Part shown: positions 15,444-45,043 of the stretch, piece after piece
Position numbering within the stretch: the stretch's first letter is position 1
Layout of the letters: each line of letters opens with the position of its first letter
Source of the DNA: Pedobacter polysacchareus
GTDB taxonomy: Bacteria > Bacteroidota > Bacteroidia > Sphingobacteriales > Sphingobacteriaceae
NCBI RefSeq assembly: GCF_019802255.1
Contig: NZ_JAHYSS010000002.1
Coordinates: forward strand, 822,548 to 886,547
Reading direction: 5' to 3'
Length of the DNA: 64,000 nucleotides
The notes under the pieces: model-generated
The model's database searches: none
What the model saw: the letters and a program-made list of their open reading frames with translations, nothing else
What the model was told of the DNA's origin: nothing
Position numbers and translations under genes: made by a program

Positions 15444-18400
15444 ATGAACCACTTTAAACTCCTGCTTCTTGGCTTGCTGTTTTCCTTCATCGGAGCGACT
15501 GCGCAACAAAAAAGCATCAGCTTTAATCATCTGACCGTAGAGAATGGATTGTCGCAAAGCAGCGTGCTGTCTATTACACAGGATAGTCTGGGCTTCCTAT
15601 GGTTTGGTACCAAAGACGGGCTAAATAAGTTCAATACTCAGAATTTCGAGATTTATAAATACCATAAAAAGGATAGCACTTCTTTAACGAGCAGCATGAA
15701 CATCAATGCCCTGCTTACCGATAGCAAAGGGAATGTATGGGTGGGTACGCAAAAGGGCTTGAACTTATATCTGCCAAAAACCAATTCTTTTAAGCGTTTT
15801 CAATACCATGCCAGGCAAAAGAATAGCCTCAGCAATAACATCATCAGGAGTATATATGAAGACCGACAAGGTTTTATTTGGGTAGCCACAGATAGTGGAT
15901 TGAACAAATTGGTAGCTCCGGATAAATTTGAGCGCTACATGACTTCTAGTGATCCGCAAAAAGGACCGGTACACCATTTGATCAAATCTGTTTATCAGGA
16001 TCACAACAATGTGATGTGGGTGGGAACCCTTCAGGGCTTAACCAGTATGGTACTAAAGAATGGAAAATATGTTTGCCGTTCTTATGTACACGATAAAAAC
16101 AGGGCGGAAAGTTTGAGCGATAACGACATCAGTTCCATTCTGGAAGACCATCGGCACAACTTATGGATTGGTACACATAGCGGCGGACTGGAGTTAATGG
16201 ATCGCAGTACCGGTACTTTTAAGCATTTCCGCTTTAAGAACGGACAGCCCAATAGCATCAGCAGTAACGTAATCCGTAAAATGATGCAGGCAAAGGATGG
16301 CAAATTATGGGTGTCCACGCTAAATGGTATCAACATCATTGATGTAGATACTTATGCGATAAAAGTATTGAATCACCTTCCTGACGACCCTTCCAGCTTA
16401 AACCAGAATTCTATTTACGACTTAATGCAGGATGCCGCCGGTTCCATCTGGGTGGGTACTTATTATGGTGGCGTAAATGTGTACCATGTGAATTCGACAC
16501 CTTTCCGGGAGTATAAATCGAAGATAGGGAAAAACGGACTCAGCAGTAATGTGGTCAGTTCTATCGTAGAAGATTCTAAAAATAACCTTTGGATAGGAAC
16601 GGAAGCGGAGGGACTCAATTATTATGATCGTGCTTCCGGTAAGTTTACGAGTTTCAGACATGACCCTGAAGATCCTTCTTCACTCAGTTCTACCCTGGTG
16701 AAAGCTGTTTCTATAGACCATAAAGGGAAAGTTTGGGTGGGTACCTATGAAGGTGGACTGGATTTGTATCAACCCGCTACAAAGAACTTCCGTCATTATG
16801 CGGCGAACCCAGCAAATCCTAAGGCTTTAAATTCTGGCCGGATCATTTCTTTATTGCATGACCGACAGCAGCGCTTCTGGATCGGAACCCGTGCCAATGG
16901 CCTTTTCCTTTACAATGAAAAAACAGACGACTTTTCTCCGTTTTCGGGAATTAATGACAAGCATGATTTAAAAGTAGTGCGTTACTTATTTCAGGATTCT
17001 AAGAACAATGTCTGGATTTGCTGTAATTCGGGAACCTATATTCTGGAGCCCAATAGTACAAAGGTCAGGAAGTTTAAGAACAATGACGACCGGATGCAGT
17101 TCAACGATATCAATTTTGTGCAGGAGGATTCACATGGTTATATCTGGCTGGGCGGCTATGAATCCGGGCTGACCCGCTATCAGCCTCAAAATAAAACCAT
17201 CCGTTCTTTTAAGAAGGAAGATGGCTTGCCGAGCAATGTGGTACTGGGGATGTTGGAAGATGATAAAGGGAACCTTTGGATCAGTACCGACAATGGCCTG
17301 TCGAAATTTGACCGCAAGACTTTTAAAACGTATACAGTAAGGGATGGCCTTCCAGGGAATGTGTTCAATTATAACTCTTTCTTTAAAGACAGTAAAGGAG
17401 AGTTTTTCTTCGGTGGATTTAATGGTCTGGTCAGCTTCTTCCCTGATCAGATTAAAGACAATAACCGGGTGCCGAAAGTGGTGTTTACACGCCTTAAGCT
17501 TTTTAATAAGCCAATCAGCATCAATGATGAGACTGAACTGCTGAAAGAAAATATCAGCCTGACCAAAGAACTTACTTTTTCTTACCATCAGAATATTTTT
17601 ACGGTAGACTTTGCCGTGCTCAATTATATCAAGTCGGAGAAGAACAGGTATGCTTACAAATTGGAAGGTTTTGAAAAAGATTGGAATTATGTGAGCAGTC
17701 CCTCTGCCACTTTTACCAATTTGCCCTCGGGCACTTATACTTTATTGATCCGTGGTTCTAACAATGATGGGGTCTGGAATCCAGTACCTACTAAACTCCT
17801 GATCCATGTGAACCCGCCTTTATGGAAAACCTGGTGGGCATACCTGATTTATTTATCAGCTTTCCTGGGGCTGTTGTTTTTGTTCTCGCGCTTCCTTTGG
17901 ATCCGGGCCCTGCTGAAAAGAGAACAGGATGTATATCAAATGAAACTTGATTTCTTTACCAATGTTTCCCATGAGATCAGAACACCGCTGACCTTAATTG
18001 AGGGGCCTTTAGAAACGCTGATCAATGAGACTCAGGAATCGCCGGTATTGAATCGGAAATTGCTGACAGTGAGAAGGAATGCAGGCCGTTTAACGAGATT
18101 GGTAAATGAGCTGCTGGATTTTAGAAAGGCAGAATCAGGAAAACTGCGCCTCAACATCTCACCGGGTAATATTGTCGGCTTTGCCAAAGAGATCTACCTT
18201 TCTTTTACAGATTTGGCCATCAAACAGCATATCGATTATCAGTTCTTGTCGGACGAAGCAGAGATTGAGGTTTATTTCGACAATGAACAGTTGGAAAAGG
18301 TCTTGTATAACCTCTTGTCAAATGCCTTTAAATGTACACCAGATGGTGGGATGATCCGTTTGTCGGTCTTAAAAACTAATGACGGTTTTGTAGAAATCCG

Positions 18401-19517
18401 CACCTGTGACAACGGTAAAGGGATTCCAGAAGAAAGCAGGGATAAGCTGTTTACGAATTTCTACCAGGTCAAAGATCCGCTTTCCAGAAATAGCGGGACA
18501 GGAATAGGACTGGCGCTTTCTAAAAAGATTGCAGAACTCCACCATGGGAACCTGTTCTTAGCGGAACAAAAAGATATTCCTGAGGCGGGCATTCGCACCT
18601 GCTTTTGCTTGAAGCTGAAATTAGGGCAGGAACATTTTTCAAAAGAAGAGCTGGTACAAGATTTTCTTAATTCTGAGAACCCGGCACATTATCAGGCTTC
18701 GGATACAGCTATGGAGGAACAGTTGGTTCAAATGCCATCCGTAGAAAGCGGAGATGCGGATGAGCAGATCACGATTTTGATTGTAGAAGATAACCATGAG
18801 GTCAGAGATTTTATTGTACAGTCTTTACGGCCGTTTTATATCGTGTTGGAAGCGGAAAATGGGGCTTTAGGCCTGGAGATCGCGATAGAAAAAATACCTG
18901 ATTTGATTGTGAGTGATGTGATGATGCCGGTGATGGATGGCTTAGAGCTGTGCCGGACTTTGAAAACCGATGTCAGGACCAGCCATATTCCAGTCATCCT
19001 GTTAACTGCAAGGACGGGGAATATCCATGAAGTGAACGGTTTGAAAACGGGAGCTGAGGCTTACCTCACCAAACCTTTCAGCATCAGCAGTCTGCAGCTG
19101 ACCATCTCGAATCTGCTCATGCTGCAAGCCAATATGAGGCGGAAGTTTAGTCAGCAGATTACCCTGCAGCCCGCAAATATTTTAATTGAGTCTTCCGACG
19201 AAGAATTCCTAAACAAAGTTATGGCCCTGATTGAGGATAATTTTACAACGCCGGAGTTTAGCGTAAACACCCTGGCTTCGGAGCTGGGTATGAGCACACC
19301 TATTCTTTATAAAAAGATAAAAGTATTGACCGGTTTAACCGTGAATAACTTCCTGAAATCTGTCCGCCTGAAAAGAGCGGCGCAACTCCTCCGACAAAAG
19401 GTGTACACCGTTTATGAAGTGGCCTACCTCGTAGGTTTTAGTGACCCCAAATATTTCAGTAAAGAATTTGTGAAACAGTTTGGCAGAACCCCTTCTGATT
19501 ATGCTGTCGGAGAATAA
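15444..19517 (+). CDS. Hybrid two-component system (HTCS) regulator of the polysaccharide utilization locus
   Basis: 1357 residues combining sensor, kinase, receiver and DNA-binding parts. A signal peptide (to about residue 20) is followed by some 14 Reg_prop beta-propeller repeats (GFLWFGTKDGLNKF, VWVGTQKGLNLY, and so on) and a Y_Y_Y domain (YAYKLEGFEKDWNYV). One membrane segment (about 792-812) follows, then HisKA with NVSHEIRTPLTLIEG (His843), HATPase with ATP-lid GTGIGLALSKKIAELHHG, a receiver with Asp1158 in IVSDVMMPVMDG, and a C-terminal AraC helix-turn-helix ending VGFSDPKYFSKEFVKQFGRTPSDY. Family members bind glycan breakdown products in the periplasm and activate nearby SusCD/CAZyme genes. 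It precedes the locus at 20933-43488 and is its most likely activator. Confidence 0.95.
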   Translation: MNHFKLLLLGLLFSFIGATAQQKSISFNHLTVENGLSQSSVLSITQDSLGFLWFGTKDGLNKFNTQNFEIYKYHKKDSTSLTSSMNINALLTDSKGNVWVGTQKGLNLYLPKTNSFKRFQYHARQKNSLSNNIIRSIYEDRQGFIWVATDSGLNKLVAPDKFERYMTSSDPQKGPVHHLIKSVYQDHNNVMWVGTLQGLTSMVLKNGKYVCRSYVHDKNRAESLSDNDISSILEDHRHNLWIGTHSGGLELMDRSTGTFKHFRFKNGQPNSISSNVIRKMMQAKDGKLWVSTLNGINIIDVDTYAIKVLNHLPDDPSSLNQNSIYDLMQDAAGSIWVGTYYGGVNVYHVNSTPFREYKSKIGKNGLSSNVVSSIVEDSKNNLWIGTEAEGLNYYDRASGKFTSFRHDPEDPSSLSSTLVKAVSIDHKGKVWVGTYEGGLDLYQPATKNFRHYAANPANPKALNSGRIISLLHDRQQRFWIGTRANGLFLYNEKTDDFSPFSGINDKHDLKVVRYLFQDSKNNVWICCNSGTYILEPNSTKVRKFKNNDDRMQFNDINFVQEDSHGYIWLGGYESGLTRYQPQNKTIRSFKKEDGLPSNVVLGMLEDDKGNLWISTDNGLSKFDRKTFKTYTVRDGLPGNVFNYNSFFKDSKGEFFFGGFNGLVSFFPDQIKDNNRVPKVVFTRLKLFNKPISINDETELLKENISLTKELTFSYHQNIFTVDFAVLNYIKSEKNRYAYKLEGFEKDWNYVSSPSATFTNLPSGTYTLLIRGSNNDGVWNPVPTKLLIHVNPPLWKTWWAYLIYLSAFLGLLFLFSRFLWIRALLKREQDVYQMKLDFFTNVSHEIRTPLTLIEGPLETLINETQESPVLNRKLLTVRRNAGRLTRLVNELLDFRKAESGKLRLNISPGNIVGFAKEIYLSFTDLAIKQHIDYQFLSDEAEIEVYFDNEQLEKVLYNLLSNAFKCTPDGGMIRLSVLKTNDGFVEIRTCDNGKGIPEESRDKLFTNFYQVKDPLSRNSGTGIGLALSKKIAELHHGNLFLAEQKDIPEAGIRTCFCLKLKLGQEHFSKEELVQDFLNSENPAHYQASDTAMEEQLVQMPSVESGDADEQITILIVEDNHEVRDFIVQSLRPFYIVLEAENGALGLEIAIEKIPDLIVSDVMMPVMDGLELCRTLKTDVRTSHIPVILLTARTGNIHEVNGLKTGAEAYLTKPFSISSLQLTISNLLMLQANMRRKFSQQITLQPANILIESSDEEFLNKVMALIEDNFTTPEFSVNTLASELGMSTPILYKKIKVLTGLTVNNFLKSVRLKRAAQLLRQKVYTVYEVAYLVGFSDPKYFSKEFVKQFGRTPSDYAVGE

Positions 19518-19528
19518 TTCCAGGTTAT

Positions 19529-19566
19529 TTAAGAATTTCCCCCTTTATAATTAAGAATTTCACCCC
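19529..19566. repeat. 22-base-period direct repeat downstream of the HTCS gene
   Basis: TTAAGAATTTCCCCC at 19529-19543 and TTAAGAATTTCACCCC at 19551-19566, starting exactly 22 bases apart. AraC-type proteins, including HTCS output domains, typically bind direct repeats about two helical turns apart. The TTTCACCCC end resembles TTTCACTCC at 6708-6716. It could control the AraC gene or the SusC operon further on. Confidence 0.45.
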
Positions 19567-19813
19567 TCAGAGATGCGCAGGAGCGCTACATTAGCAAAAC
19601 CAAGTATAATTTATCTGTAAGACCAATTGATCTGATGAACGAGTATTCTATGATTTCTTGTCCTGTATTTCCTAACTGTGGGAATGTTTTTCAGGATTCC
19701 TCATTTCTGTTATGCACTAGCGTTAGCGCTGGTCATGACCAGACTGTATCCTTCGTATTTCAAATAAATGTGCTGGTAGCGCCTCTAGGATTCTAACTAA
19801 ATAACTATTGATT

Positions 19814-20695
19814 ATGAAAGCACAATTACTAAAAGTATCGATGGCTCCTGCTCAATCATTTAGTGTCAGACAGGATGTCGAACCATTTGTCAACAATAAA
19901 TGGCATTACCATCAGGAACTGGAATTGATTTACTTTAATGAAGGAAAGGGAACCCAGTTTATCGGGGATAACATTCAATCATTTGATTCGGGAGACATCA
20001 TTCTGGTAGGGGCGCATTTGCCGCATTACTGGAGATTTGAGGATGCCTATTTTGAAGGTGGCGAAAAAAGCGGTACTGCAGATGTCAAGGTTGCTCATTT
20101 TAGTGAAGACCTTTGGGGAGATTTCTTTTTGAACCTGCCAGAAAATAAAGCCCTAAAAGATGTGATGGAGAAATCCAAAAGAGGAGTGAAGGTAAAGGGG
20201 AAAAATAAAGAAATGGTAGCGGCATTACTTACCCGCATGCTGGAAGCAGAAGGAACGGAAAGGATCATCATGCTGATGCAGGCTTTACTGGAAATCGCTA
20301 AATGCACTGAACTGGAAACGCTGGCTTCCGTTGGGTTTCAGTACGACCTGGAGCAGGTAGAGAAAGACCGCATCAGTGACATTTATGAATATACTTATGC
20401 CAATTTCAGGAATAAGATCTGTCTGGAGGAAATTGCTGATGTAGCCAAGATCAGCCCGAATTCTTTCTGCCGTTATTTTAAATCGCGCACGCGAAAAACC
20501 TATTCTCAGTTTCTGACAGAGATCAAAGTAGGGCAGGCCTGCAAGCTTTTAATTGAAGCACACCTCAACCTCAAACAAATCTGCTACAATAGTGGCTTTA
20601 ATAATTTTGCCAGTTTCCATAAGTGTTTTAAAAAAGTAACCGGGAAAAGTCCCCTCTGTTATCAGCGGGAATTTGTAACCGAATATATCAACTAA
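19814..20695 (+). CDS. AraC-family transcriptional regulator with cupin-like N-terminal domain
   Basis: 293 residues. The N-terminal half has a cupin-like sensor pattern (WHYHQELELIYFNEGKGTQF, then a GDIILVGAHLPHYW strand), used in this family to bind small sugars. The C-terminal AraC double helix-turn-helix contains LEEIADVAKISPNSFCRYFK and ICYNSGFNNFASFHKCFKKVTGKSP. The gene stands between the HTCS gene and the SusC gene, in the same direction, so a second, cytoplasmic layer of control over the locus is likely. The frame extends two codons upstream to a TTG; ATG at 19814 was chosen. Confidence 0.92.
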   Translation: MKAQLLKVSMAPAQSFSVRQDVEPFVNNKWHYHQELELIYFNEGKGTQFIGDNIQSFDSGDIILVGAHLPHYWRFEDAYFEGGEKSGTADVKVAHFSEDLWGDFFLNLPENKALKDVMEKSKRGVKVKGKNKEMVAALLTRMLEAEGTERIIMLMQALLEIAKCTELETLASVGFQYDLEQVEKDRISDIYEYTYANFRNKICLEEIADVAKISPNSFCRYFKSRTRKTYSQFLTEIKVGQACKLLIEAHLNLKQICYNSGFNNFASFHKCFKKVTGKSPLCYQREFVTEYIN

Positions 20696-20932: not shown

Positions 20933-23900
20933 ATGAAGGAAATTTATACTATGAACCTCTATTTGTCTGACAAATGGAACTTGTGCACGATCAGGAAGGT
21001 TGGCGTCATCATTTTACTAGCCCTCGGGATGTTATTTTCCCCCTCCGCGTATGCACAAACAATTAAAGTAAAAGGCGTGGTGAAGGATGATAAAGGGGTG
21101 CCGCTTCCAGGGGTGGGCGTCAAAATTAAAGGGACTTCCACGGGTACTTCTACCAATGGGGATGGTCTTTACAACATTACAGTACCCAGCTCATCAGCGG
21201 TATTGGTGTTTAGTTATATCGGCTATATGCCTCAGGAAGCTACAGTAGGCAGTAAAACTACGGTAAACATTAGCCTGAAAGAAGATTTTTCTGATCTGGA
21301 GGAAATTGTAGTGACGGGTTATGGCGGGGTGGCCAGAAAGAAAGACCTTACCGGTGCCAGTTCTTCTGTGAATGAGAAAGCAATTAAAGAACGTCAGCCA
21401 ATTAACCTTTTTGATGCTTTGCAAGGCCAGGCAGCAGGGGTTTTAATTGTGAATGATGGCGGTGGTGCCCCAGGTGCTACAGGTTCTATCCAGATTCGCG
21501 GTACTTCTACTTTGAATGGTGGAAATGGTCCTTTATATGTAGTAGATGGGGTGATCGACGAGAATGGTGCGAATATCAATCCTGCCGATATGGCCAATAT
21601 AGAAGTCTTGAAAGATGCGGCATCAGCCTCCATCTATGGTTCACGTGCCGCAAACGGGGTAATTTTAATTACCACCAAAAGAGGACAGGAAGGAAAACCT
21701 TCAATCGATGTGACCTATAATCACGTATTTGGACGTTTAGCCCATAGCATTCCAATCAGTAATTCGGCGGAAGTACGTGCATTTAGAGCGATTCAAGGCA
21801 GAACGAATGCCACAGATTCCCTGAATCCAAGTTTCAATGCAGATAATGACCTGCAGGATATCTTATTAGGTAACCTGGCTCAAAAGAAAGAAGTTAAATT
21901 GGGAATTAGTGGTGCCCAAAAAGGATTGAACTATTATACCAGTTTAAATTACCTGGATGATCAATCTATCATTAAAAATAGCTGGGCGAAACGCTTACAG
22001 TCGAGGATAAATATCGGCTATCAGATCTCCCCAAAATTAAAATATTCAAATAATGTGTCCTTTGGCTGGTCGAAAGGAAATGCAATTCCAGTGGGAAATA
22101 CGATAAAGGTTGTCGTAGACCGACCTGCTTATTCCTTGCTTTACTATCCTGACGGAACATTAACCAGTTATATCGCTTCAAAAAGAAATCCAATTGCCCA
22201 GGCTTTATATGAGCGGGATGAGGACGAAGTGTATTCTGCACAATTGAATAACCAGCTGGATTATTCCTTTACAAATGAACTGAAGTTTACGACCTTATTT
22301 AACGCAAAACTCGATAATGCCCAGAATATGTATTTTTCGCCAAGGATCATTTCAGCGAATAAAGATCAGAACTCTGGTAAAAATGAAATGAACAAAACAT
22401 TCAGGTATGAATACCAGGCTTTTGTGAACTACAACAGAACTGTGTTAACCGACCATACTTTTTCTGCTTTGCTGGGCTTTAGTGCAGACAGAAGAAAGTT
22501 TGATCGCGTCCATACGGAGTATCAAAACAGTGTAAATGAGGCAGTTTTCGTGACGCTTCCTGATTACCTGACGGCCTCTAAAAGTTACACAGATGGAACG
22601 GCAAATTCTACGGCTTCTATCTTTAGCAGATTAGGCTACAATTATAAAGGACGCTATATTTTACAAGGAACCTATCGTAGAGATGGATCTTCAAGATTCG
22701 GATCAGAAAACCGCTGGGGTAATTTCTTCTCTGCTTCTGCAGCATGGCGTTTCTCTGATGAGAAATTTATGAGCTTTGCAAAACCTTACCTGGAAGATGC
22801 AAAACTTCGTTACAGTTTTGGTCAGCTAGGAAACGATAAAATCGGAGATTACGAGTCTTATACCAAATTCGGATTTGCAGGAAACTATAATGGCATTGGT
22901 GCTGCAGTACCAATCTCAAATTTCGGTAATCCTTACATCAAATGGGAAACCACTACACAGAACAATATCGGAATGGACCTGAGTTTCTTCAAGGGAAGGT
23001 TAGGCATCACCGCTGATTATTATGTGAAAGAAACCAGTAACCTATTGTACCCAAAAGAACTTTCTAAAGAAACAGGATATAGTACGGTGCTGGTGAATGT
23101 AGGAACCATACAGTCAAAAGGTTTTGAGTTTGTAGCCACAGGAACACCAATAGCCACAAAGAATTTTGAATGGAACATCATGGGTAACATCACCTTTGAA
23201 CGTGGAACAGTAAAGAAACTTGCAGGCGGTATTCCATTATTTGTGGGTAATAAATGGTATGTAGAAGAGGGTGGTAAAATTGGTAATTTCTATGGTTGGA
23301 AAAACCTGGGTGTTTACCAGTGGAATGAATCAAATGCTTACGATGAAAACTGGAAAAAACTAACCTTAGTATTAGAGAATGGACAGCCTAAAATTGAGAA
23401 TGGTAAAGCGGTTTATACTTCAGATGGACAGCCATATACTGGAAATGTGTTGAGTAAAAGGGCACCGGATGGTAAATTAAAAGGTGGTGATGCAGAGTGG
23501 GAAGAGGTAAAAGCCGATGGGGTAATTGATGATGAAGATCGCCAGATCCTGGGTAATGCGACTCCTGATTTCTATCTGGGTGTGACGAACAATTTCCGTT
23601 ATAAAAATATAGCCTTGTCCTTTACGTTCAATGGTTCATTTGGCGGCGAAGTATACAATAGCCTTTTACAATCACAGAATAATCCTTCCAATACTGGTGC
23701 CGGATCTCCGGATATGGTTTACAATTCCTGGAGAAAGCCTGGCGATATTGCCAAATACCCTTATTATATCGAGAAGAATAACCGTGGAAACCTGAAAACT
23801 AATCAGAACAGCTTGTACGTAGAAGATGCATCTTTCTTTAGGTTATCGAGCGCACGCTTGTCGTACCAACTCAATGAAAAATGGTCAAAAACCGTTGGCA

Positions 23901-24067
23901 TGAGAAGGATCAGTACCTATATATATGGTACCAATTTATTAACCTGGACCAATTACCGCGGTTATGATCCTGAGTTTAGCACCAACAACCCTTTAACCCC
24001 GGGTGATGACGTTGGTAAATATCCAAGAAGAAGAGAGTTTGGTTTAGGTATCAATGTTAATTTCTAA
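20933..24067 (+). CDS. SusC/RagA-family TonB-linked outer-membrane transporter of the polysaccharide locus
   Basis: 1044 residues. A hydrophobic signal (IILLALGMLFSPSAYAQ) ends near residue 42, and ATG at 20951 is an alternative start giving a more usual signal length. The carboxypeptidase-D-like domain (VKGVVKDDKGVPLPGVGV) and the DLEEIVVTGYG junction precede a plug with GSIQIRGTSTLNG, PLYVVDGVIDE and DAASASIYGSRAANGVILITTKRG. The barrel ends in FGLGINVNF. It is followed at once by SusD, and together they should import large oligosaccharides released at the surface. No FecR or ECF sigma factor lies nearby, so control more likely runs through the HTCS and AraC regulators upstream. Confidence 0.94.
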   Translation: MKEIYTMNLYLSDKWNLCTIRKVGVIILLALGMLFSPSAYAQTIKVKGVVKDDKGVPLPGVGVKIKGTSTGTSTNGDGLYNITVPSSSAVLVFSYIGYMPQEATVGSKTTVNISLKEDFSDLEEIVVTGYGGVARKKDLTGASSSVNEKAIKERQPINLFDALQGQAAGVLIVNDGGGAPGATGSIQIRGTSTLNGGNGPLYVVDGVIDENGANINPADMANIEVLKDAASASIYGSRAANGVILITTKRGQEGKPSIDVTYNHVFGRLAHSIPISNSAEVRAFRAIQGRTNATDSLNPSFNADNDLQDILLGNLAQKKEVKLGISGAQKGLNYYTSLNYLDDQSIIKNSWAKRLQSRINIGYQISPKLKYSNNVSFGWSKGNAIPVGNTIKVVVDRPAYSLLYYPDGTLTSYIASKRNPIAQALYERDEDEVYSAQLNNQLDYSFTNELKFTTLFNAKLDNAQNMYFSPRIISANKDQNSGKNEMNKTFRYEYQAFVNYNRTVLTDHTFSALLGFSADRRKFDRVHTEYQNSVNEAVFVTLPDYLTASKSYTDGTANSTASIFSRLGYNYKGRYILQGTYRRDGSSRFGSENRWGNFFSASAAWRFSDEKFMSFAKPYLEDAKLRYSFGQLGNDKIGDYESYTKFGFAGNYNGIGAAVPISNFGNPYIKWETTTQNNIGMDLSFFKGRLGITADYYVKETSNLLYPKELSKETGYSTVLVNVGTIQSKGFEFVATGTPIATKNFEWNIMGNITFERGTVKKLAGGIPLFVGNKWYVEEGGKIGNFYGWKNLGVYQWNESNAYDENWKKLTLVLENGQPKIENGKAVYTSDGQPYTGNVLSKRAPDGKLKGGDAEWEEVKADGVIDDEDRQILGNATPDFYLGVTNNFRYKNIALSFTFNGSFGGEVYNSLLQSQNNPSNTGAGSPDMVYNSWRKPGDIAKYPYYIEKNNRGNLKTNQNSLYVEDASFFRLSSARLSYQLNEKWSKTVGMRRISTYIYGTNLLTWTNYRGYDPEFSTNNPLTPGDDVGKYPRRREFGLGINVNF

Positions 24068-24071
24068 TAAG

Positions 24072-25625: not shown

Positions 25626-25635
25626 TCAACAGACC

Positions 25636-36901: not shown

Positions 36902-38086
36902 ATGAAAAGATACCTCTTTACTGTACTAGCCCTTTCTTTGCTGCATACCAGCACTTTTGCCCAGAAACCGAACGTTAAAAAAGCGTTCAAGCTGGCTGCT
37001 AAACAAACAGAATTTATGCTGAAGGAGGTGGAACAAGCAAAGTTGCATTCCAAAAATCCAGCATTGGTTTCGCCGAGGACTATCGAAGATGGAAAACTGA
37101 AATTGGTGGCTTCAAGAGATTGGACCAGTGGTTTTTTTCCTGGTGTGCTTTGGTTTTTATATGAATACAACCATCAGCAGCCCTGGATGAAAGAAGCGAG
37201 GAAGTTTTCTGCGGCTATCGAAAAGGAAAAGCTGAATGGTACGACGCATGATATGGGCTTTAAAGTGTATTGCAGCATTGGTACAGGCTATCGCATTACG
37301 AAAGATGCCCATTACAAAGAAGTGATTGTGGAATCGGCAAAAAAACTGGCCACTCGCTTTAATCCTAAAACAGGGGTGATTTTATCCTGGGATCATAGTC
37401 GGGATAAATGGGTGAATCCAGTGATTATCGACAATATGATGAACCTGGAGCTGCTGTTTGAAGCGACCAGATTAAGTGGTGATTCTTCTTTTTATAAGAT
37501 TGCAGTGAGCCATGCCAATGTAACCATGAAAAACCATTTCCGCCCGGATTACAGCTCATATCATGTGATTGATTATGATCCTCAAACTGGTGCGGTATTG
37601 AAAAAGCAAACCCATCAGGGTTACAGCCATGAATCTGCCTGGTCCAGGGGACAGGGATGGGCATTATACGGTTATACAATGTGTTACCGATTCACTAAAG
37701 ATCCTGTTTATTTGAAACAAGCAGAAAACATAGCTGCATATATCCTGAACCATCCAAATATGCCAAAAGACCTGGTTCCTTACTGGGATTTTAACGCGCC
37801 AAATATTCCTAATGAACCAAGAGATGTCTCCGCTGCCGCGGTGATCGCTTCTGCATTGTATGAACTGAGTGATTATAGTCAGCAAAAGGCACTTTATAAA
37901 GAAAAAGCAAATGTGATGATGAACAGTATGGCTAATAAATATACAGCGCCGGTGGGAACGAATAAAGGATTTATCCTGATCAGCAGCACCGGTTCTAAAC
38001 CTTCAAATTCTGAGGTAGATGTGCCGCTTTCTTACGCCGATTACTATTATCTGGAAGCTTTGTTAAGGGCAGATCAGTTGAAATAA
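36902..38086 (+). CDS. GH88 unsaturated glucuronyl hydrolase
   Basis: 394 residues with a signal peptide ending FAQ near residue 21. The (alpha/alpha)6 barrel carries DWTSGFFPGVLWFLYEY, VIIDNMMNLELLF with the key Asp177, THQGYSHESAWSRGQGWALYG, and a C-terminal EVDVPLSYADYYYLEALLR. GH88 enzymes hydrate the C4=C5 double bond of unsaturated uronates made by lyases, which releases the sugar from the oligosaccharide end. Its presence beside three lyase-type genes (33599, 38210, 40603) strongly supports a uronic-acid-containing substrate. GH105 is related but the SRGQGWALYG pattern fits GH88. The signal peptide suggests action in the periplasm. Confidence 0.92.
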   Translation: MKRYLFTVLALSLLHTSTFAQKPNVKKAFKLAAKQTEFMLKEVEQAKLHSKNPALVSPRTIEDGKLKLVASRDWTSGFFPGVLWFLYEYNHQQPWMKEARKFSAAIEKEKLNGTTHDMGFKVYCSIGTGYRITKDAHYKEVIVESAKKLATRFNPKTGVILSWDHSRDKWVNPVIIDNMMNLELLFEATRLSGDSSFYKIAVSHANVTMKNHFRPDYSSYHVIDYDPQTGAVLKKQTHQGYSHESAWSRGQGWALYGYTMCYRFTKDPVYLKQAENIAAYILNHPNMPKDLVPYWDFNAPNIPNEPRDVSAAAVIASALYELSDYSQQKALYKEKANVMMNSMANKYTAPVGTNKGFILISSTGSKPSNSEVDVPLSYADYYYLEALLRADQLK

Positions 38087-38209: not shown

Positions 38210-39001
38210 ATGAAAAAGAACCAATTAATGATTGCAGTATTGATGAGTGGGGGTGCGTTATTGTCCAGTTGTGAAAAGGAAGGATCAGCAGAGTCTGCCA
38301 TTAGTCCAAATCCGAAAACTAAAGAAGTGGTCACGACAACGGATGATCCTGTTGCTGCTTCGGTATTGTTCAACGGTGATGCGAGTAATGGCGCCGATAA
38401 TCTCTGGAAAGCCATCAATATCGAGGGAACGGGGGCATTATCTACGGTAACAGATGAAACGGGTGTGTTGACCTGGAAATTTTTGAAACCATTGGGGAGC
38501 CACCGTACAGAGGTACGTGGTGCCAAGAATTTTCAGGCAGCCGAAGGTGATGAAATTTACATCGGTTTTACGAGTAAACTGCTCATCCCCTCGAATTTAA
38601 AAACGGAGGCGATTTTCCAGTGGAAATCTTACCCTACCGAAGACTCCCGACAAAATCATCCTTTGATGCTGAGGACAAAAAATGGGAAATTAGAGCTGCA
38701 GCATTTTGACGATAGTCATGTGGCTACGGTTCCCTGGTCGATTAATTTACCAGTGAGTACCTGGATGAGCTTTGTGATTCGTATGAAAGTTTCCCGTAAT
38801 CCAGCCATCGGATTTATTGAATTCTGGTACAATGGGGTGAAACAAACCTTGTCTAACGGTACTCAGCGCCTGACTTGCAGGACGCTTGATGTGCAGGATT
38901 GCGATCCTAAATGGGGCGTATATGGTGGTGATGAAGCTGCGGTGACACATTATGTGAAAAAGATCAGAATCGGGACTACTTATGCCGATGCCGCGCAATA
39001 G
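38210..39001 (+). CDS. Polysaccharide lyase with beta-jelly-roll fold (PL20/heparin-lyase-I-like), lipoprotein
   Basis: 263 residues. Lipobox LLSSC (Cys21) followed by an acidic linker suggests surface anchoring. The jelly-roll core contains GSHRTEVRG, IYIGFTSKLLIP, AIFQWKSYP, PWSINLPVSTWMSFVIRM and FWYNGVKQTL, ending in KWGVYGGDE and a terminal KKIRIGTTYADA. These match the lyase fold of PF14099 and of PL20 glucuronan lyases. A surface-anchored endo-lyase would make the first cuts in the polymer before SusCD import. Together with PL38-like and GH88 genes it points to beta-1,4-linked glucuronate. Catalytic residues were not assigned, so family PL20 is a best guess. Confidence 0.7.
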   Translation: MKKNQLMIAVLMSGGALLSSCEKEGSAESAISPNPKTKEVVTTTDDPVAASVLFNGDASNGADNLWKAINIEGTGALSTVTDETGVLTWKFLKPLGSHRTEVRGAKNFQAAEGDEIYIGFTSKLLIPSNLKTEAIFQWKSYPTEDSRQNHPLMLRTKNGKLELQHFDDSHVATVPWSINLPVSTWMSFVIRMKVSRNPAIGFIEFWYNGVKQTLSNGTQRLTCRTLDVQDCDPKWGVYGGDEAAVTHYVKKIRIGTTYADAAQ

Positions 39002-39158: not shown

Positions 39159-40598
39159 ATGCGTAAAATATCATTATCACTCCTCATAGCATTATCTTTT
39201 TTTATTCAGTTCGCCCATGGCCAACGCGCGCTAACTAAAGACGAGCGGATGGCCTGGTGGCGAGAGGCCAAATTCGGCATGTTCATCCACTGGGGCGTTT
39301 ATGCGCAGTTTGCTGGCGTATATAAAGGACATGAACAGCTTCGCGGAGGGGCAGAATGGATCATGAACCGCTCTAAAATTCCTGTTGCAGAGTATCAGGA
39401 AATGGCTAAAAGCTTCAATCCTACAAAATATAATCCGGATGCCTGGGTCAAAATGGCTAAAGACGCGGGGATGAAATACCTGATCATCACGGCAAAACAC
39501 CATGATGGTTTCGCTTTATTCAACTCAAAAGCCAGTAAATGGGACATCACCGATGCCACTCCTTATGGTAAAGATCTGCTGAAACCTTTAGCAGAAGCCT
39601 GTAAGAAATATGGACTGAAACTAGGTTTTTATTATTCTCAGGCACAGGATTGGAATAACCCTGGTGGATCAGCTGCAAGAAAAGAAATGAGAGAGGGCTG
39701 GGCAAACCCAGATTCTACAAAAATTGATGCTTATACGCTGGCCAATAAAGGCCATTGGGATCCTGCTCAGCAGACAAAAAACTTCGATCAATATATTGAT
39801 GAGGTGGCTGTCCCACAAGTGAAAGAATTGATGACCAATTACGGTGATATTGCTGTGCTTTGGTGGGATACGCCAACAAATATGACGGATGAAGCCGCTT
39901 TAAAACTTCAAAATGCGCTAAAAACACAGCCTCAAATCATTACCAACGACCGTTTAAAAAGACCTAATTTCCCTGGGGACACTAAAACTCCAGAGCAAAA
40001 AATTCCTAATCAGGCAGAATTGGATGGAATGGACTGGGAAACCTGTATGACCATGAATGGCACCTGGGGATTCCGTACTGCAGATCATAAATGGAAATCA
40101 AGTGAAACATTGATCCGTAATTTAGTGGATATCGCTTCTAAAGGAGGAAATTACTTGCTGAATGTTGGTCCGAAACCAGATGGTACTTTTCCTGAGGAAA
40201 GTGTACAAAGGTTGAGCGATATTGGAAAATGGATGAAGGTAAATAGTGAAGCCATTTATGGTACAAAAGCAAGTCCTTTAGCGCCATTGGATTGGGGACG
40301 CTGTACAAGAAAAGAGACCAAAAAAGGAACTGTGCTGTATTTGTCTGTGTTCAACTGGCCTAAAGATGGGGTTTTGGTGGTTCCTGGATTGAAAAATAAG
40401 GTGTTATCGGCATCACTTTTAGCAAAAGGTAAAGGGAAGGTCAGCACCCAAAGAAAAGGAGATGAGTTGTTGATTACTGTACCTCAGGAAGCTCCTGATG
40501 CAGTCGCTTCGGTGATCCGCCTGGAGCTGGAAGGTACGGTGGAACATCATGTGACTGATCAGCCTAAAAAAGAAATGAAAACCGGTGCATTAGATTAA
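39159..40598 (+). CDS. GH29 alpha-L-fucosidase (second, single-domain)
   Basis: 479 residues with a signal peptide ending AHGQ. GH29 markers are MAWWREAKFGMFIHWGVYAQ, YLIITAKHHDGFALFNSK, GLKLGFYYSQAQDWNN and AVLWWDTPTNM with nucleophile Asp237, plus KGGNYLLNVGPKPDGTFP. It keeps a short C-terminal beta domain but lacks the longer binding-module-like region of the copy at 34955. The residue patterns differ enough to suggest another GH29 subfamily and a different fucose linkage (alpha-1,3/1,4 versus broad). It is followed 4 bases later by the PL6 gene, so the two are surely co-transcribed. Confidence 0.92.
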   Translation: MRKISLSLLIALSFFIQFAHGQRALTKDERMAWWREAKFGMFIHWGVYAQFAGVYKGHEQLRGGAEWIMNRSKIPVAEYQEMAKSFNPTKYNPDAWVKMAKDAGMKYLIITAKHHDGFALFNSKASKWDITDATPYGKDLLKPLAEACKKYGLKLGFYYSQAQDWNNPGGSAARKEMREGWANPDSTKIDAYTLANKGHWDPAQQTKNFDQYIDEVAVPQVKELMTNYGDIAVLWWDTPTNMTDEAALKLQNALKTQPQIITNDRLKRPNFPGDTKTPEQKIPNQAELDGMDWETCMTMNGTWGFRTADHKWKSSETLIRNLVDIASKGGNYLLNVGPKPDGTFPEESVQRLSDIGKWMKVNSEAIYGTKASPLAPLDWGRCTRKETKKGTVLYLSVFNWPKDGVLVVPGLKNKVLSASLLAKGKGKVSTQRKGDELLITVPQEAPDAVASVIRLELEGTVEHHVTDQPKKEMKTGALD

Positions 40599-40602: not shown

Positions 40603-41922
40603 ATGAAAACGATACTTTTTACTGTTGTGCTGCTATGGATCGCCGCTATTGGGCAGGCAAAAGATTACCGCATTCGTTCTGCAAAGGAACTGGAAGCATT
40701 GGTTTTAACGCCTGGTGATCGGGTGATACTGGAAGCAGGTGATTGGAAAGATCAGAAAATTGTATTTAAAGGAAATGGGACCAAAGCGCGTCCCATTGTT
40801 TTATTGGCCGCAAATCCAGGGAAAACGGTTTTGACCGGTAATTCCTCCCTGGAGATTGACGGAACCTGGCTGCTGGTAGATGGTTTGTCTTTTAGCAATG
40901 GTTTTCTAGATGCTGGCGATGTGATTAATTTTTCTGAAAGCGCTTCTTTTTGCAGGTTAACCAATACTGCGGTGGTCGATTACAACCATCCGGATGAAAA
41001 AGTAGATTACCGATGGGTTTCTTTAAGAGGAGACCATAATCGGGTAGACCATTGTTTTTTTAAAGGGAAACGCCATCAAGGGGTGACGCTGGTAGTCTGG
41101 CTTTCAGAAAAACCGAATTACCACCAGATCGACCATAATTATTTTGGACCACGTCCGGAATTGGGAAGAAATGGCGGCGAAACCATTAGAATAGGAACCA
41201 GTACCTGGTCTTTTCATGATTCGTTTACGGTAGTAGAAGAGAATATTTTTGAGCATTGCAATGGGGAATTAGAAGCAGTTTCTAATAAATCATGCCGGAA
41301 TATCATTAGAAATAACTTGTTTTATGAGTGCAAGGCTACGCTGACCTTAAGGCATGGGAACCATTCGGAAGTTTCAGGGAACTTCTTTATCGGCAATGGG
41401 AAACCTGGAACTGGTGGGGTTCGCATCATTGGGGAAGATCATGTCGTACATGACAATTACTTTCAGGATTTAACAGGAACGAGTGTGAGTGCTGCGATTT
41501 CTGTGATGGCAGGGCTGCCAAATCCGATATTAACAAGCCATTGGCAAGTGAAAAATGCGCTGATCAAGGGCAACCTGATCCTCAATTGCAAAGAACCTTT
41601 TGCGATTGCTGCGGGCTATCATCCTGGTCGGTATTTACCCGCTTTAAATACGGTTTTTGCGGAGAATATCATTCTGGCGAATCAATCTCCATTAAAATGG
41701 TATGATGAAAAGGTGCTGGTTGATTTTAAGGATAACCTGATTTTGAGCCCATCTTATTCCGGAACTCCAGAAAAAGGTTTTACATTGAAAAATGAAGTCC
41801 TTAAAAAGATGAAGAATGGGTTGTACTTAAAACCAGGACAGTCGCCATTTGAGCCCTTCTGGGAAAGCACGAAAATCGGACCGGATTGGGCTAAATTGAA
41901 TACTTCTTTTCCGGTGCTGTAA
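40603..41922 (+). CDS. PL6 family polysaccharide lyase (chondroitinase B/alginate lyase type)
   Basis: 439 residues with a signal peptide ending GQAKD. A right-handed beta-helix with the PL6 signature NGGETIRIGTS, then the catalytic pair Lys229 in VSNKSCRNI and Arg250 in LTLRHGNHSEVSGN, spaced 21 residues as in characterised PL6 lyases, and GVRIIGEDHVVHDNYFQDL. Family members cut alginate or dermatan-type chains by beta-elimination using Ca2+, Lys as base and Arg as acid. At 439 residues it is a single-domain form, somewhat shorter than chondroitinase B. In this locus the substrate could be a uronate in a heteropolymer rather than alginate, since no PL7 or PL17 gene accompanies it. Confidence 0.9.
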   Translation: MKTILFTVVLLWIAAIGQAKDYRIRSAKELEALVLTPGDRVILEAGDWKDQKIVFKGNGTKARPIVLLAANPGKTVLTGNSSLEIDGTWLLVDGLSFSNGFLDAGDVINFSESASFCRLTNTAVVDYNHPDEKVDYRWVSLRGDHNRVDHCFFKGKRHQGVTLVVWLSEKPNYHQIDHNYFGPRPELGRNGGETIRIGTSTWSFHDSFTVVEENIFEHCNGELEAVSNKSCRNIIRNNLFYECKATLTLRHGNHSEVSGNFFIGNGKPGTGGVRIIGEDHVVHDNYFQDLTGTSVSAAISVMAGLPNPILTSHWQVKNALIKGNLILNCKEPFAIAAGYHPGRYLPALNTVFAENIILANQSPLKWYDEKVLVDFKDNLILSPSYSGTPEKGFTLKNEVLKKMKNGLYLKPGQSPFEPFWESTKIGPDWAKLNTSFPVL

Positions 41923-42063
41923 TCCCGATTTCTTATATTTCCTGGAATAAATTGATTCCGACACAAAATGGAAGAATTACGAGATGGTATCCGGTTTCTT
42001 TATTTGAGGCGCAGCTTCAGTGGAGACTAAAAGGTATTGACCTGTCTAAAGCTAAATAGAAAA

Positions 42064-43488
42064 ATGAGAAGAATATTTAAAGTGCTCTTGATATTATCGG
42101 TTTTTATCACTGGTAATGAGGGTTATGCACAGTCGAAAACACGTATTGTTTGTGTGGGCAATAGCATCACCTTTGGTTCCGGATTAAAGAATAGGGCCAG
42201 GGAATCTTATCCTTCACAGCTGCAAGCACTGCTTGGGCCTGATTTTGAAGTGCTGAACTTTGGCGTTAGCGGGGCCACGATGCTAAAAAAAGGGAACAAA
42301 CCTTATTGGAAAACGAAGGAATATCAGCAGGTATTGTCCAGCGCTCCGAACCTGGTTTTTATCAAATTGGGAACGAATGACAGTAAACAAATCAACCGTT
42401 CGGAGATGGTTTCTTTTGTCGCGGATTATAAAGATATGGTACATAGTTTTCAGGGATTGGCATCCAAGCCCAAGGTAGTTTTGCTATTGCCCCTGAAAGC
42501 TTTTTCTGAAACGCAGTTTGGGATTTCGGGTACCTATCTAAAGGATAGTCTGATTCCTATGGTTCAAAAAGTGGCTTATGAAGAAGGCCTGGAATTACTG
42601 GACCTTTATTCTTTATTTGAAGATAAAGAGTCTTTACTGGCAGATAAAGTCCATCCGAATGCTGTTGGCGACGGCTTTATTGCAGAACGATTAAAGGCTT
42701 TTGTCCTGCAAAAAAATAAACCTGCTAAGAACCTCTCCGGCAAGATCAGAGGACCTTTGAAAAGAAGGTCTTTTTACGGCTATGAGGAGCTGGACTTTTC
42801 ATTTAAAGGTCGTGATGCCCGGATCGTGAGTCCGAAGCAAGTGGCGAAAGGCATGCCCTGGGTATGGAGAGCAAGGTTCTTTGGGCATGAACCACAAACA
42901 GACATCGCCTTGCTGGAACGTGGTTTTCATATCGTGTATTGTGATGTGGCAGAGTTGTTCGGGAATCAGGAAGCTATTGGCATCTGGAATGACTTTTACC
43001 GTTCCCTTCAAAAGATGGGTTTTGCAAAGAAGGCGGTGATGGAAGGCATGAGCAGAGGTGGCGTATATGTCTATAACTGGGCAGCGGCTAATCCGGATAA
43101 AGTGGCTTGTGTGTATGCGGATAACCCGGTGCTGGATTTAAAAAGCTGGCCTGGTGGTAAGGGTACGGGACCAGGCAGCAAAGACAGTTGGGCAACTTTT
43201 TTAAAGGACTACGGCTATGCAAATGATGCGGAAGCCGAGGCTTTTAAAGGCAGTCCAATAGATAAAATAAATGCTATTGTAAAAGGAAAATATCCGATGT
43301 TACATGTTTGCGGGGACAGGGATGAGGTCGTGCCAATGGCAGAGAACAGCCTCCCTTTTGCGGAGAAAATTAAAGCGGCGGGTGGAGAGATTCAGCTGAT
43401 TCATAAGCCTGAAGGCAAACATCATCCGCATAGTCTTCCCAATCCGCAGCCTATTGTTGATTTTATTTTGAAAGCTACCGGATATTGA
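42064..43488 (+). CDS. Two-domain esterase: SGNH/GDSL hydrolase fused to alpha/beta hydrolase
   Basis: 474 residues with a signal peptide ending YAQ. Domain 1 (about 25-220) is SGNH: IVCVGNSITFGSG with Ser34, LGTNDS, and the catalytic DKVHPNA with Asp194 and His197. Domain 2 (about 235-474) is alpha/beta hydrolase: nucleophile elbow EGMSRGGVYVYNWAA with Ser330, the acid region HVCGDRDEVVP and the His in PEGKHHPHSLP. Both active sites look complete. Fused carbohydrate esterases of this kind are thought to remove acetyl or other acyl groups from decorated glycans, which fits the end of a lyase/glycosidase operon. The frame opens at a TTG at 42037; ATG at 42064 starts the signal peptide. The gene overlaps the convergent gene by 14 bases. 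Confidence 0.88.
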   Translation: MRRIFKVLLILSVFITGNEGYAQSKTRIVCVGNSITFGSGLKNRARESYPSQLQALLGPDFEVLNFGVSGATMLKKGNKPYWKTKEYQQVLSSAPNLVFIKLGTNDSKQINRSEMVSFVADYKDMVHSFQGLASKPKVVLLLPLKAFSETQFGISGTYLKDSLIPMVQKVAYEEGLELLDLYSLFEDKESLLADKVHPNAVGDGFIAERLKAFVLQKNKPAKNLSGKIRGPLKRRSFYGYEELDFSFKGRDARIVSPKQVAKGMPWVWRARFFGHEPQTDIALLERGFHIVYCDVAELFGNQEAIGIWNDFYRSLQKMGFAKKAVMEGMSRGGVYVYNWAAANPDKVACVYADNPVLDLKSWPGGKGTGPGSKDSWATFLKDYGYANDAEAEAFKGSPIDKINAIVKGKYPMLHVCGDRDEVVPMAENSLPFAEKIKAAGGEIQLIHKPEGKHHPHSLPNPQPIVDFILKATGY

Positions 43489-43501
43489 TTCCGGCAGCTT
43501 T
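43471..43501. terminator. Hairpin shared by two convergent genes, containing both stop codons
   Basis: AAAGCTACCGG (43471-43481) and CCGGCAGCTTT (43491-43501) form an 11-bp stem around a 9-base loop. The single mismatch becomes G-U in the minus-strand RNA. The plus-strand stop TGA (43486-43488) is in the loop and the minus-strand stop (43475-43477) is in the stem. Short T/A-rich stretches flank both sides, so it can act in both directions. Confidence 0.65.
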
Positions 43502-45043
43502 AACTTGTGCCAGGAATAAAGATGCTGGCTGCAGGTTTTTTTGATCCTGACCTTCCCATTCTCCATCAGGTTTTCCTGGTAAACGTCCGGCTACCTTTTT
43601 TCCTTTCAGACCTATCGCGTAGTTTTTACCGGATGCCCATGGGTTTTGAACGGCTGCAGATGCTACGGTACAGTTCCAAATCACCTGTGTTACACCTGCC
43701 CAGCCATGTCCGCTGCCCCAGTTTCCACGGTCTTGCACGTTAATTTGACCATCGGTATCGATGTTGTCGTATAGCGTTCCGCTTGCCCAGCGGTGGTGCG
43801 GCCCAATATCGGCATGGGTATTTCTGGATTTACAATTGTAGAACACGTTAGGGCCTGCTGTTTTGGCTCCGGTTACGTAATCATGCCGACCTTCGGTAGT
43901 TTCCAGGTTCGTGAAGAGATTTTGCTGTCCGTTGTTGTTGAAGGAATACCTTCTGCCACCAGTAATCACTGATTTAGCATCCAGACATTTGGAGTCTTTT
44001 ACCGTGATGTTCTTTGCACCGGTATTCAGACTCACTGCTGCATAAATGAAAAAGCGCGCGGTGATGCCGCTTACCCAGCCATTTTCGACATGGTCAAAGT
44101 CGATGGCAATGTTCCCATGGTCTTCATCAATATCACTCGCGTATTCAGATTCAAAAAGTATGTCTTCTACGCCAACTTCCTGTAAGCGGCCTTTATAGCT
44201 GTATTTGTAAATGGCTCCAGTGCTGTATTTCTGGTCTATGGCCATGACTACTGGGTTGTCAATAAAGACCGTATTCCCAACTATCTTTGTAATTTCTCTT
44301 TCATAACTCAGGTTATAATCTTCGGCCGTCCATTGTTTGGTGCCTTCTCTGGCTACTATCTGATCCATTTGTATATCCTTGATCCAATTGCTGCTTCCTG
44401 GTCTGAAAAGAATGATTTTATCCCCGGCTTTGAAGGCTTTGGCATCCGTTACGTTGAAAGATTTTGCTCCGGTAGGAACATAAGCATTGGTTATATTTAC
44501 CCTGCTGCCAGGGATTTCTGTGATCTTGCCGGTGCCACTGATCTCCAGTAGGGAGCGGGAACCTTTTCCGGTGGCGATGAGCTGAGTGCCATTGGCTGTA
44601 TTTCCTTCCCCTTTCAGCACGATGCCATCGGATTTGATATATACTGTGCCAGAAATAGGGTAAGTACCTTTAGTTAAGAGAATCGTTCCCCTGTGGCCAT
44701 TCTTATCTGCGGGTTGTTTTGAAAGTTCATCAATAGCTTGCTGAATCATGTTTCCCGCATCGCCAGTTCCAGGATGGAGGGTTTTAACTATATTAAGTTT
44801 TGGGATGGGTTTTAGGCCATGGTGATAACCGACCAGGCTAAAATCCGGGATCGTATTTCCTTGTTCGTCGGGATGGTAAGTGATGGTTCCATCTTTATTG
44901 ACGTTGAGGTACTTTGATTCCCAGGGATTTTGTTTGGTATGGTGGGGATTTTCTATGATGCTAGGATCATGCTCCTTGATAAAGGAAAAAAGAAAGGTGC
45001 TGGTCAGAACGGCCAGCACACTCCATGTAAATTTGTGCTTCAT
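43475..45043 (-). CDS. Secreted right-handed beta-helix protein, pectate-lyase-like, family uncertain
   Basis: 522 residues with a signal peptide (VLAVLTSTFLFSFI). The opening of the mature protein includes GYHHGLKPIP and AGNMIQQAIDEL, followed by the pectate_lyase_3 pattern GTILLTKGTYPISGTVYIKSDGIVLKGEG and many beta-helix turns (GNIAIDFDHVENGWVSGI, NITVKDSKCLDA). The C-terminal part has PHHRWASGTLYDNI and GSGHGWAGVTQVIWNC, strongly conserved-looking stretches with several His and Trp. It resembles Bacteroidota beta-helix proteins with a C-terminal DUF4955, but this is from memory and unchecked. A lyase or glycosidase acting on the same glycan is likely. It is convergent to the esterase gene and follows the P-type ATPase gene on the minus strand. 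Confidence 0.65.
   Translation of the reverse strand: MKHKFTWSVLAVLTSTFLFSFIKEHDPSIIENPHHTKQNPWESKYLNVNKDGTITYHPDEQGNTIPDFSLVGYHHGLKPIPKLNIVKTLHPGTGDAGNMIQQAIDELSKQPADKNGHRGTILLTKGTYPISGTVYIKSDGIVLKGEGNTANGTQLIATGKGSRSLLEISGTGKITEIPGSRVNITNAYVPTGAKSFNVTDAKAFKAGDKIILFRPGSSNWIKDIQMDQIVAREGTKQWTAEDYNLSYEREITKIVGNTVFIDNPVVMAIDQKYSTGAIYKYSYKGRLQEVGVEDILFESEYASDIDEDHGNIAIDFDHVENGWVSGITARFFIYAAVSLNTGAKNITVKDSKCLDAKSVITGGRRYSFNNNGQQNLFTNLETTEGRHDYVTGAKTAGPNVFYNCKSRNTHADIGPHHRWASGTLYDNIDTDGQINVQDRGNWGSGHGWAGVTQVIWNCTVASAAVQNPWASGKNYAIGLKGKKVAGRLPGKPDGEWEGQDQKNLQPASLFLAQVKAAGINIR

Follow-up and report, generated by a model that had tools for sequence, protein, structure and literature searches.

A Pedobacter polysaccharide utilization locus and its probable target, a fucosylated, galactose-bearing and glucuronate-rich polymer

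Which polymer does a bacterium take apart when three lyase-type genes, three members of fucosidase families, an alpha-galactosidase-type gene and a two-domain esterase are gathered in one locus? The question is raised by positions 15444-45043 of the window, by which we mean the whole 64,000-nucleotide stretch that was analysed, situated on contig C12 of the 5.83-Mb genome of Pedobacter polysacchareus. This segment holds two regulators, a SusC/SusD pair, a small lipoprotein, ten closely spaced enzyme genes and a convergent beta-helix gene (Table 1), and with SusC and SusD adjoining one another in the company of carbohydrate-active enzymes and a local regulator it is a polysaccharide utilization locus (PUL). 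The enzyme set calls for glucuronate (GlcA), L-fucose (Fuc), alpha-galactose (Gal) and acyl groups. The likely target is an acylated acidic heteropolysaccharide whose backbone is rich in 4-linked D-glucuronate and which carries alpha-L-fucose and alpha-D-galactose, part of the galactose probably being alpha-linked to fucose. This confidence belongs to the polymer class and not to its natural source, and both substrate and activities are inferred.

The leaning towards glucuronate begins with the PL20-like lyase. Its product matches PF14099 at 64.9 bits (cut-off 29.9), and searches of the PDB by sequence, with phmmer and with a profile, were unconvincing, the Trichoderma glucuronan lyase 2zzj appearing at E 0.6 in the profile search. 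For the structure model, 2zzj was the first PDB match in both Foldseek and VIA-align, in the latter at Z 22.2 with a root-mean-square deviation (rmsd) of 2.4 over 202 residues, the next row being a GH131 protein at 18.9; the Foldseek list also contains many lectin-like domains of unrelated proteins, which have only the jelly roll in common. Though weak at sequence level, the family call is borne out by the modelled fold, which joins a glucuronan-lyase architecture to the PF14099 match.

The PL38-like lyase matches PF05426 at 305 bits and the solved proteins 3nfv and 8bdq, the latter of which we take to be BoPL38, at 214 and 141 bits. Its N248, H249, R298 and Y304, presumably the catalytic Asn/His, Arg and Tyr of the family, are kept in 85/85 relatives. 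Here and below, relatives were drawn from genomes with sister loci and from 80 PL38 loci (see below), with at least 45% identity and nearly complete length; one genome identical with a locus already present was dropped (G209, same as L055), a possible second pair was kept (G026 and L064), and others may be double. In GH88 (353 bits to 3wiw) D117 and D177 are kept in 60/60, and the catalytic residues checked were unchanged in every relative aligned. This uronate module is tied to D-glucuronate in particular by the presence near PL38, in 7/80 loci, of homologues of a scanned UxuA (mannonate dehydratase, from locus L131), all seven having GH88 and six GH2.

The GH2 enzyme matches 6d7j, a protein named beta-glucuronidase that we take to be PmGUS, at 1204.6 bits. 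Both catalytic glutamates (acid/base E423, nucleophile E507) and an NQKG motif at 603 are kept in 40/40 aligned relatives. The accessible parts of PMC12243196 and PMC6712278 describe NxK(G) as a mark by which GH2 beta-hexuronidases are known, most of these being glucuronidases and some galacturonidases. The enzyme is thus predicted to be of the beta-hexuronidase (glucuronidase) type, a galacturonidase also being possible. The earlier note on this DNA had counted GH2 among the signs of galactose; because the hexuronidase motif is present, GH2 gives no such sign, and a beta-galactosidase assignment was dropped on that motif. Against the NCBIfam equivalog NF050095 (LacZ4) it scores 304.7 bits, below the cut-off of 950, and is not that equivalog; its best score against beta-galactosidase equivalogs is 272.8 bits (cut-off 900).

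Galactose returns by way of GH31. This protein matches the Pseudopedobacter saltans alpha-galactosidase PsGal31A (PDB 4xpo) at 1170.8 bits, its nucleophile is D360, and its Y269, E361, R413 and W481 correspond to Y274, E366, R418 and W486 of PsGal31A, all five active-site residues being kept in 29/29 relatives. The same four PsGal31A residues are named in the available text of PMC9491548, where a fucose was captured at the +1 subsite. By its residues the locus enzyme is a predicted PsGal31A-type alpha-galactosidase, and since these residues are kept and PsGal31A has been seen with fucose at +1, the substrate would appear to have alpha-galactose adjoining fucose. The galactose branches proposed earlier therefore stand as alpha-galactose through GH31, and fall as far as they relied on GH2. 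For the fucose branches, which are also supported, GH95 and both GH29 enzymes match solved proteins named alpha-L-fucosidase. GH95 scores 783 bits against 2rdy, 701 against 8zbv (alpha-L-fucosidase) and 634 against 4ufc; because we take 4ufc to be an L-galactosidase, fucose is likely rather than certain as the sugar removed by GH95. The two-domain esterase bears out the acylation that had been proposed. Loci with the same GH31 type are also found without PL38 and with GH95 and GH29 (L147, L148 and L163), which suggests a second alpha-Gal/Fuc glycan.

Among the locus enzymes, a lipobox at the end of the signal peptide is found in the PL20-like protein, making it the candidate surface enzyme. 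The pattern also occurs within the GH31 signal peptide, yet none of 30 GH31 relatives matches it. Because a lipobox is found in only part of the PL20 (7/10), PL6 (8/19) and PL38 (12/85) relatives, the lyase placed at the surface may not be the same one in every locus. A scheme can be drawn in which the PL20 lipoprotein would cleave glucuronate stretches at the cell surface, and SusC/SusD with the small lipoprotein, a probable extra surface glycan-binding protein that has homologues in 15/80 PL38 loci, would bind and import the fragments. In the periplasm the esterase would strip the acyl groups, GH95 and the two GH29 enzymes would take off fucose and GH31 alpha-galactose, and PL38 and PL6 would cleave the uronan so exposed. 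GH88 would then remove the unsaturated uronate produced by the lyases and GH2 the saturated beta-glucuronate; the hybrid two-component system (HTCS) and AraC proteins would detect a fragment and turn the operon on, and fucose and glucuronate would be catabolised through genes elsewhere in the genome.

Whether these enzymes belong together can be judged from other genomes. Scanning named genomes with a PL38 alignment turned up at least 577 relatives, of which the best-scoring 80 loci were read with flanks of up to 10 kb; the sample leans to close relatives, and as flanks end at 10 kb or at contig ends its gene counts are lower bounds. Counting any match at E 1e-10, GH88 is present in 53 of the 80, GH2 in 39, GH31 in 24, GH95 in 20 and each of the two GH29 genes (a and b, in locus order) in 19. 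When combinations of GH31, GH95, GH29a and GH29b were counted at 45% identity, 19 loci had at least three of the four, every one of them with GH2 or GH88, six had one or two, 36 had none with GH2 and/or GH88 present, and 19 had neither set. Neighbours on the plus strand in the 19 mixed loci were GH31-PL38 (18), PL38-GH29a (18), GH95-GH31 (17), GH29a-GH88 (17) and GH2-GH95 (13). Because the run GH95-GH31-PL38-GH29a-GH88 is unbroken in 15/19 of them (counted by hand), in the genera Pedobacter, Segetibacter, Longitalea, Niabella and Pseudobacter, the association is more than chance. The complete set of ten enzymes is also found in P. gandavensis, P. steynii and Pedobacter sp. KBW06, with one more beta-helix gene.

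The counts of 36/80 and 19/80 therefore describe a uronate module (GH2, PL38, GH88) that occurs alone and a fucose/alpha-galactose set that is interspersed with it in some of the loci. One could argue from this that the locus serves two separate glycans, one for each module, the more so as 22/39 GH31 loci (minimum identity 60%, split genes taken as one) are farther than 10 kb from any PL38 and 17/39 within that distance, again counted by hand. We consider this quite improbable, as mixed loci show the two sets intermingled in a shared gene order, and GH31 loci without PL38 in two genomes (G097 and G018) retain GH2 and GH88. Among the PL38 loci without fucosidases, one group (L066-L131), from Hymenobacter, Spirosoma, Mucilaginibacter and Pedobacter, has PL38 with GH88 and often GH2; single scanned representatives of the clusters neighbouring them are GH30, UxuA and PL8.

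Several points weigh against a single fucosylated glucuronan-type substrate. The gene set is not constant, PL38 being absent from the sister loci in G118 and G224. PL20 is an accessory, found within 10 kb in 4/80 PL38 loci and in 15/251 family genomes, where PL38 occurs in 97 (both at E 0.001, the PL38 figure including some weak matches) and GH31 in 55 (E 1e-60). The GH2 motif is shared with beta-galacturonidases, so that galacturonate is possible for this enzyme. PL38 is polyspecific: of the four characterised enzymes listed in PMC13027841 (2026), as far as its text is available, two cleave alginate and two glucuronan, and a further enzyme is added there with hyaluronan and chondroitin sulfate as substrates. 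A glucuronate backbone also has no need of PL6. The PL6 protein matches PF14592 at 321 bits and PDB 7o7a, presumably Pedsa0632, at 466 bits; K229, for which we assume a catalytic role, and R250 are kept in 19/19 relatives, and R241 occurs in the name of a mutant among the PDB matches. The accessible text of PMC4954714 describes Pedsa0632 as an endo-acting lyase that cleaves MG and G alginate, and the characterised PL6 enzymes as cleaving alginate or dermatan sulfate.

The PL6 match and the two PL38 enzymes active on alginate are what would recommend an alginate utilization locus with added fucosidases. At C18:22570-38338, though, the same genome already carries a locus of alginate type, comprising a PL6 protein of 767 aa, SusD, SusC, a short-chain dehydrogenase/reductase (SDR), a major facilitator superfamily (MFS) transporter, an esterase, a PL17-type protein (domains Alginate_lyase and Hepar_II_III_C), GntR and a PF14099 protein. 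The usual alginate set consists of PL17 and/or PL7 with PL6, an SDR reductase and an MFS transporter; this set is present at C18, and a Pfam scan of 15444-45043 finds no PL17, SDR or MFS gene there. A hexuronidase-type GH2, GH88, three fucosidase-family genes and an alpha-galactosidase would moreover be needless for alginate. Genes that would catabolise the released sugars are also present. The genome encodes UxaC, UxuA (with an adjoining SDR) and a KduI match, and a cluster on contig C1 combines GH29, MFS, a UxaA type, an SDR, FAA hydrolase, an amidohydrolase and an L-fucose dehydrogenase (407 bits), the parts expected of an oxidative fucose pathway; no FucI was found in this genome. Sister loci in G115 and G236 each have an SDR, a UxaA-type dehydratase and an MFS gene (one copy of each pair having been scanned), the G115 SDR being an L-fucose dehydrogenase at 404.6 bits (cut-off 300). 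Given the second, alginate-type locus, the L-fucose cluster and the glucuronate genes UxaC and UxuA, alginate is a very improbable target and was set aside. The judgement that pure alginate is not the substrate is thus upheld, as is that of a uronate backbone leaning to glucuronate, for which the PL20 fold, PL38, GH88, the GH2 motif and UxuA beside sister PL38 loci speak together.

Where such an acidic, fucosylated polymer would be met in nature is a harder matter. Tentatively, the glucuronans or fucoglucuronans of Mucoromycota fungi are the likeliest source, as sugar composition favours Mucorales-type glucuronans. The available text of PMC6433966 gives Fuc:Man:Gal:GlcA of 5:1:1:6 for Mucorales glycuronan (Man, mannose) and describes the exopolymers as mainly beta-1,4-GlcA, PMC11437000 reports Fuc 20%, GlcA 3-23% and Gal 12% in R. 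oryzae walls, and a glucuronan lyase-chitinase fusion has been conceived for Mucorales walls, the walls themselves being not yet tried (PMC7601620). Other facts count against the fungus. Mucorales polymers hold mannose, and a Pfam scan of the locus finds no mannosidase family; the GlcA of mucoran is reported to be alpha-linked (PMC6433966), and GH2 uronidases cleave beta links; solid-state nuclear magnetic resonance of the R. delemar wall detected no GlcA, according to the accessible part of PMC11437000; and the presence of PL6 in the locus speaks the same way. As a sign of feeding on Mucoromycota, GH46, the sole chitosanase family tried, lent no support, being present in 4/251 family genomes and not in this one.

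The convergent beta-helix protein (43475..45043) brings in a bacterial source. It has no Pfam match above cut-off, and its model (pLDDT 83) is a right-handed beta-helix for which Foldseek placed the Klebsiella K1 capsule lyase first, at a TM-score of about 0.35. A capsule or exopolysaccharide of the same polymer class with GlcA, Fuc and Gal, of the colanic acid or Klebsiella K1 type, would overlap with the polymer favoured here and differ in origin: colanic acid contains Fuc, GlcA and acyl groups and has alpha-Gal attached to Fuc, and the substrate of the K1 lyase has GlcA-Fuc units. It ranks next after the fungal polymers, and as the source it seems somewhat unlikely. The low TM-score, and the preference of VIA-align for an alginate epimerase/lyase (8jaz, Z 26.7, rmsd 3.0, 273 aligned) over a Geobacillus virus protein (25.2) and the K1 lyase (25.1, rmsd 4.8, 336 aligned), with mannuronan C5-epimerases at about 23.5 and a polygalacturonase at 23.1, indicate a fold class and not a function. 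With GH2 as a uronidase, no typical beta-glucosidase or beta-galactosidase family remains in the locus by Pfam, and the studied PL20 requires three unacetylated GlcA residues (accessible text of PMC10180729). As a K1-type capsule lyase the protein was rejected, the match staying within the general beta-helix class with no function claimed. Many of the VIA-align rows act on uronates, in a fold that is common, and homologues lie within or beside several sister loci; on its model the protein may be a lyase or epimerase that acts on uronates.

A mucilage or gum of plant origin that contains GlcA, Fuc and Gal, such as glucuronomannan or root mucilage, is an unlikely target. Several relatives bear plant- or soil-related names (the names are all that was considered), and a GH106 rhamnosidase accompanies the GH31 in the scanned locus L147, which is without PL38. 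No arabinose-, rhamnose-, xylose- or mannose-family enzyme is found by Pfam in 15444-45043 itself, however, and a glucuronan-lyase fold implies consecutive GlcA, so that plant gums fit less well than Mucorales-type glucuronans. If the fungal origin is adopted, this could be the first member to be recognised of a PUL family that terrestrial Bacteroidota devote to Mucoromycota fucosylated glucuronan, in which the PL20 lipoprotein would be the entry enzyme at the surface and the beta-helix product a novel lyase or epimerase for the same polymer, a proposition that we regard as possible and rather doubtful when taken as a whole.

The gene calls on which all this is built hold good, each named gene being an intact open reading frame (ORF) within its range and the family calls standing at the level of Pfam (Table 1). 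Between SusC and the esterase, neighbouring genes overlap by at most 14 bases and lie at most 157 bases apart, a spacing tight enough to make a single transcript plausible. The esterase probably starts downstream of the listed TTG, judging from its signal peptide.

Table 1. Genes of the locus in window coordinates, with predicted products and the basis for each call
Predicted product	Coordinates	Strand	Basis
HTCS regulator: Reg_prop/Y_Y_Y sensor, HisKA, HATPase, receiver, AraC HTH	15444..19517	+	Pfam
AraC-family regulator with cupin domain	19808..20695	+	Pfam; 97% in P. gandavensis locus
SusC/RagA TonB-dependent transporter	20933..24067	+	TIGR04056 797.5 bits; Pfam
SusD-family glycan-binding lipoprotein, lipobox LGGC	24054..25625	+	Pfam
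Small lipoprotein 3' of SusD, lipobox LTGC	25636..26385	+	No Pfam family above cut-off
GH2, beta-hexuronidase (glucuronidase) type	26391..28850	+	Pfam; PDB 6d7j; NQKG at 603
GH95, alpha-L-fucosidase family	28854..31433	+	Pfam; PDB 2rdy, 8zbv, 4ufc
GH31, PsGal31A-type alpha-galactosidase	31448..33589	+	PDB 4xpo; active-site residues
PL38-like polysaccharide lyase	33599..34843	+	PF05426; PDB 3nfv, 8bdq
GH29 alpha-L-fucosidase, copy a	34955..36835	+	Pfam; PDB
GH88 unsaturated glucuronyl hydrolase	36902..38086	+	Pfam; PDB 3wiw
PL20-like endo-glucuronan lyase, predicted lipoprotein (lipobox LSSC)	38210..39001	+	PF14099; fold match 2zzj
GH29 alpha-L-fucosidase, copy b	39159..40598	+	Pfam; PDB
PL6 lyase	40603..41922	+	PF14592; PDB 7o7a
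Two-domain esterase, SGNH/GDSL + alpha/beta hydrolase	42037..43488	+	Pfam
Right-handed beta-helix protein, convergent, 14-base overlap with operon	43475..45043	-	Structure model

The HTCS shares 91% identity (941 aa compared) with its counterpart beside the P. gandavensis locus, which is likewise followed by beta-helix, ZntA-like and FUR genes. SusC, SusD and the small lipoprotein (20933-26385) are 58, 50 and 44% identical to their P. gandavensis counterparts, the enzymes there being at 80-95%, and reach 85, 84 and 77% in P. cryoconitis; by these identities the binding and import genes seem to have been swapped as a unit. Elsewhere in the window, a further PUL-like block upstream (860-15016) has GH95, GH109, a histidine kinase, a met-zincin, SusC, SusD and a LytTR regulator. 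Downstream, an ORF of 1461 aa (49108-53493) is a fusion of two efflux components, an AcrB-type resistance-nodulation-division pump over residues 6-1033 and an outer-membrane efflux protein matched best over 1278-1460; it lies near HlyD, FUR and ZntA-like P-type ATPase genes and probably exports heavy metals. At 54257-56375 there follow an SBF-family transporter, a low-molecular-weight phosphatase family protein and DUF6428, a group that we take to be arsenic-like.

The fucosylated glucuronan of Mucoromycota is a major and little-studied microbial polymer. If the assignment is right, it names bacteria and enzymes for the recycling of a fucose- and glucuronate-rich, probably fungal, polymer for which the literature searched describes no bacterial pathway, gives a PL38 clade, of which named genomes contain at least 577 relatives, a substrate that can be tested, offers tools for working out how the little-understood Mucorales polysaccharides are built, and improves the annotation of a GH2 group easily confused with galactosidases. 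The locus itself is of a kind already known, a PUL, with an enzyme combination that is undescribed in the literature searched and a clear family of relatives. To the remark that no locus with just this set was known, one can say that no PUL of this make-up is described in the accessible parts of the literature searched (few subscription papers covered), and that the set of ten enzymes nevertheless recurs in the three Pedobacter genomes named above.

Comparison with known systems is instructive at the level of single enzymes. PmGUS of Parabacteroides merdae, the nearest solved relative of the locus GH2, is unlike it a gut enzyme studied on drug glucuronides; its slow turnover of p-nitrophenyl (pNP)-glucuronide (kcat 0.088 per s; PMC6351562, as far as available) would by analogy suit a glycan enzyme. 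Trichoderma reesei TrGL (2zzj, PL20) has the same fold as the 38210 product at 18% identity, and is a secreted fungal protein where the latter is a predicted bacterial lipoprotein. In P. saltans, PsGal31A (Pedsa_3617), with the same active-site residues as the locus GH31, and the PL6 enzyme Pedsa3628 are encoded 11 locus-tag numbers apart and may share a related locus, although the accessible texts describe both as single enzymes and give no PUL for them (PMC4954714, PMC9491548). At the level of whole loci, the alginate PUL of Bacteroides ovatus CP926 (BoPL6, BoPL17, BoPL38) resembles this one in uniting PL38 and PL6, but is described for alginate and has PL17, with no mention of a fucosidase, GH31, GH88 or glucuronidase in the available text of PMC11381880. 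For the degradation of Mucorales glucuronan or mucoran no bacterial PUL was found in the literature searched (few subscription papers covered), and it is the sugar composition of these polymers that fits the present locus.

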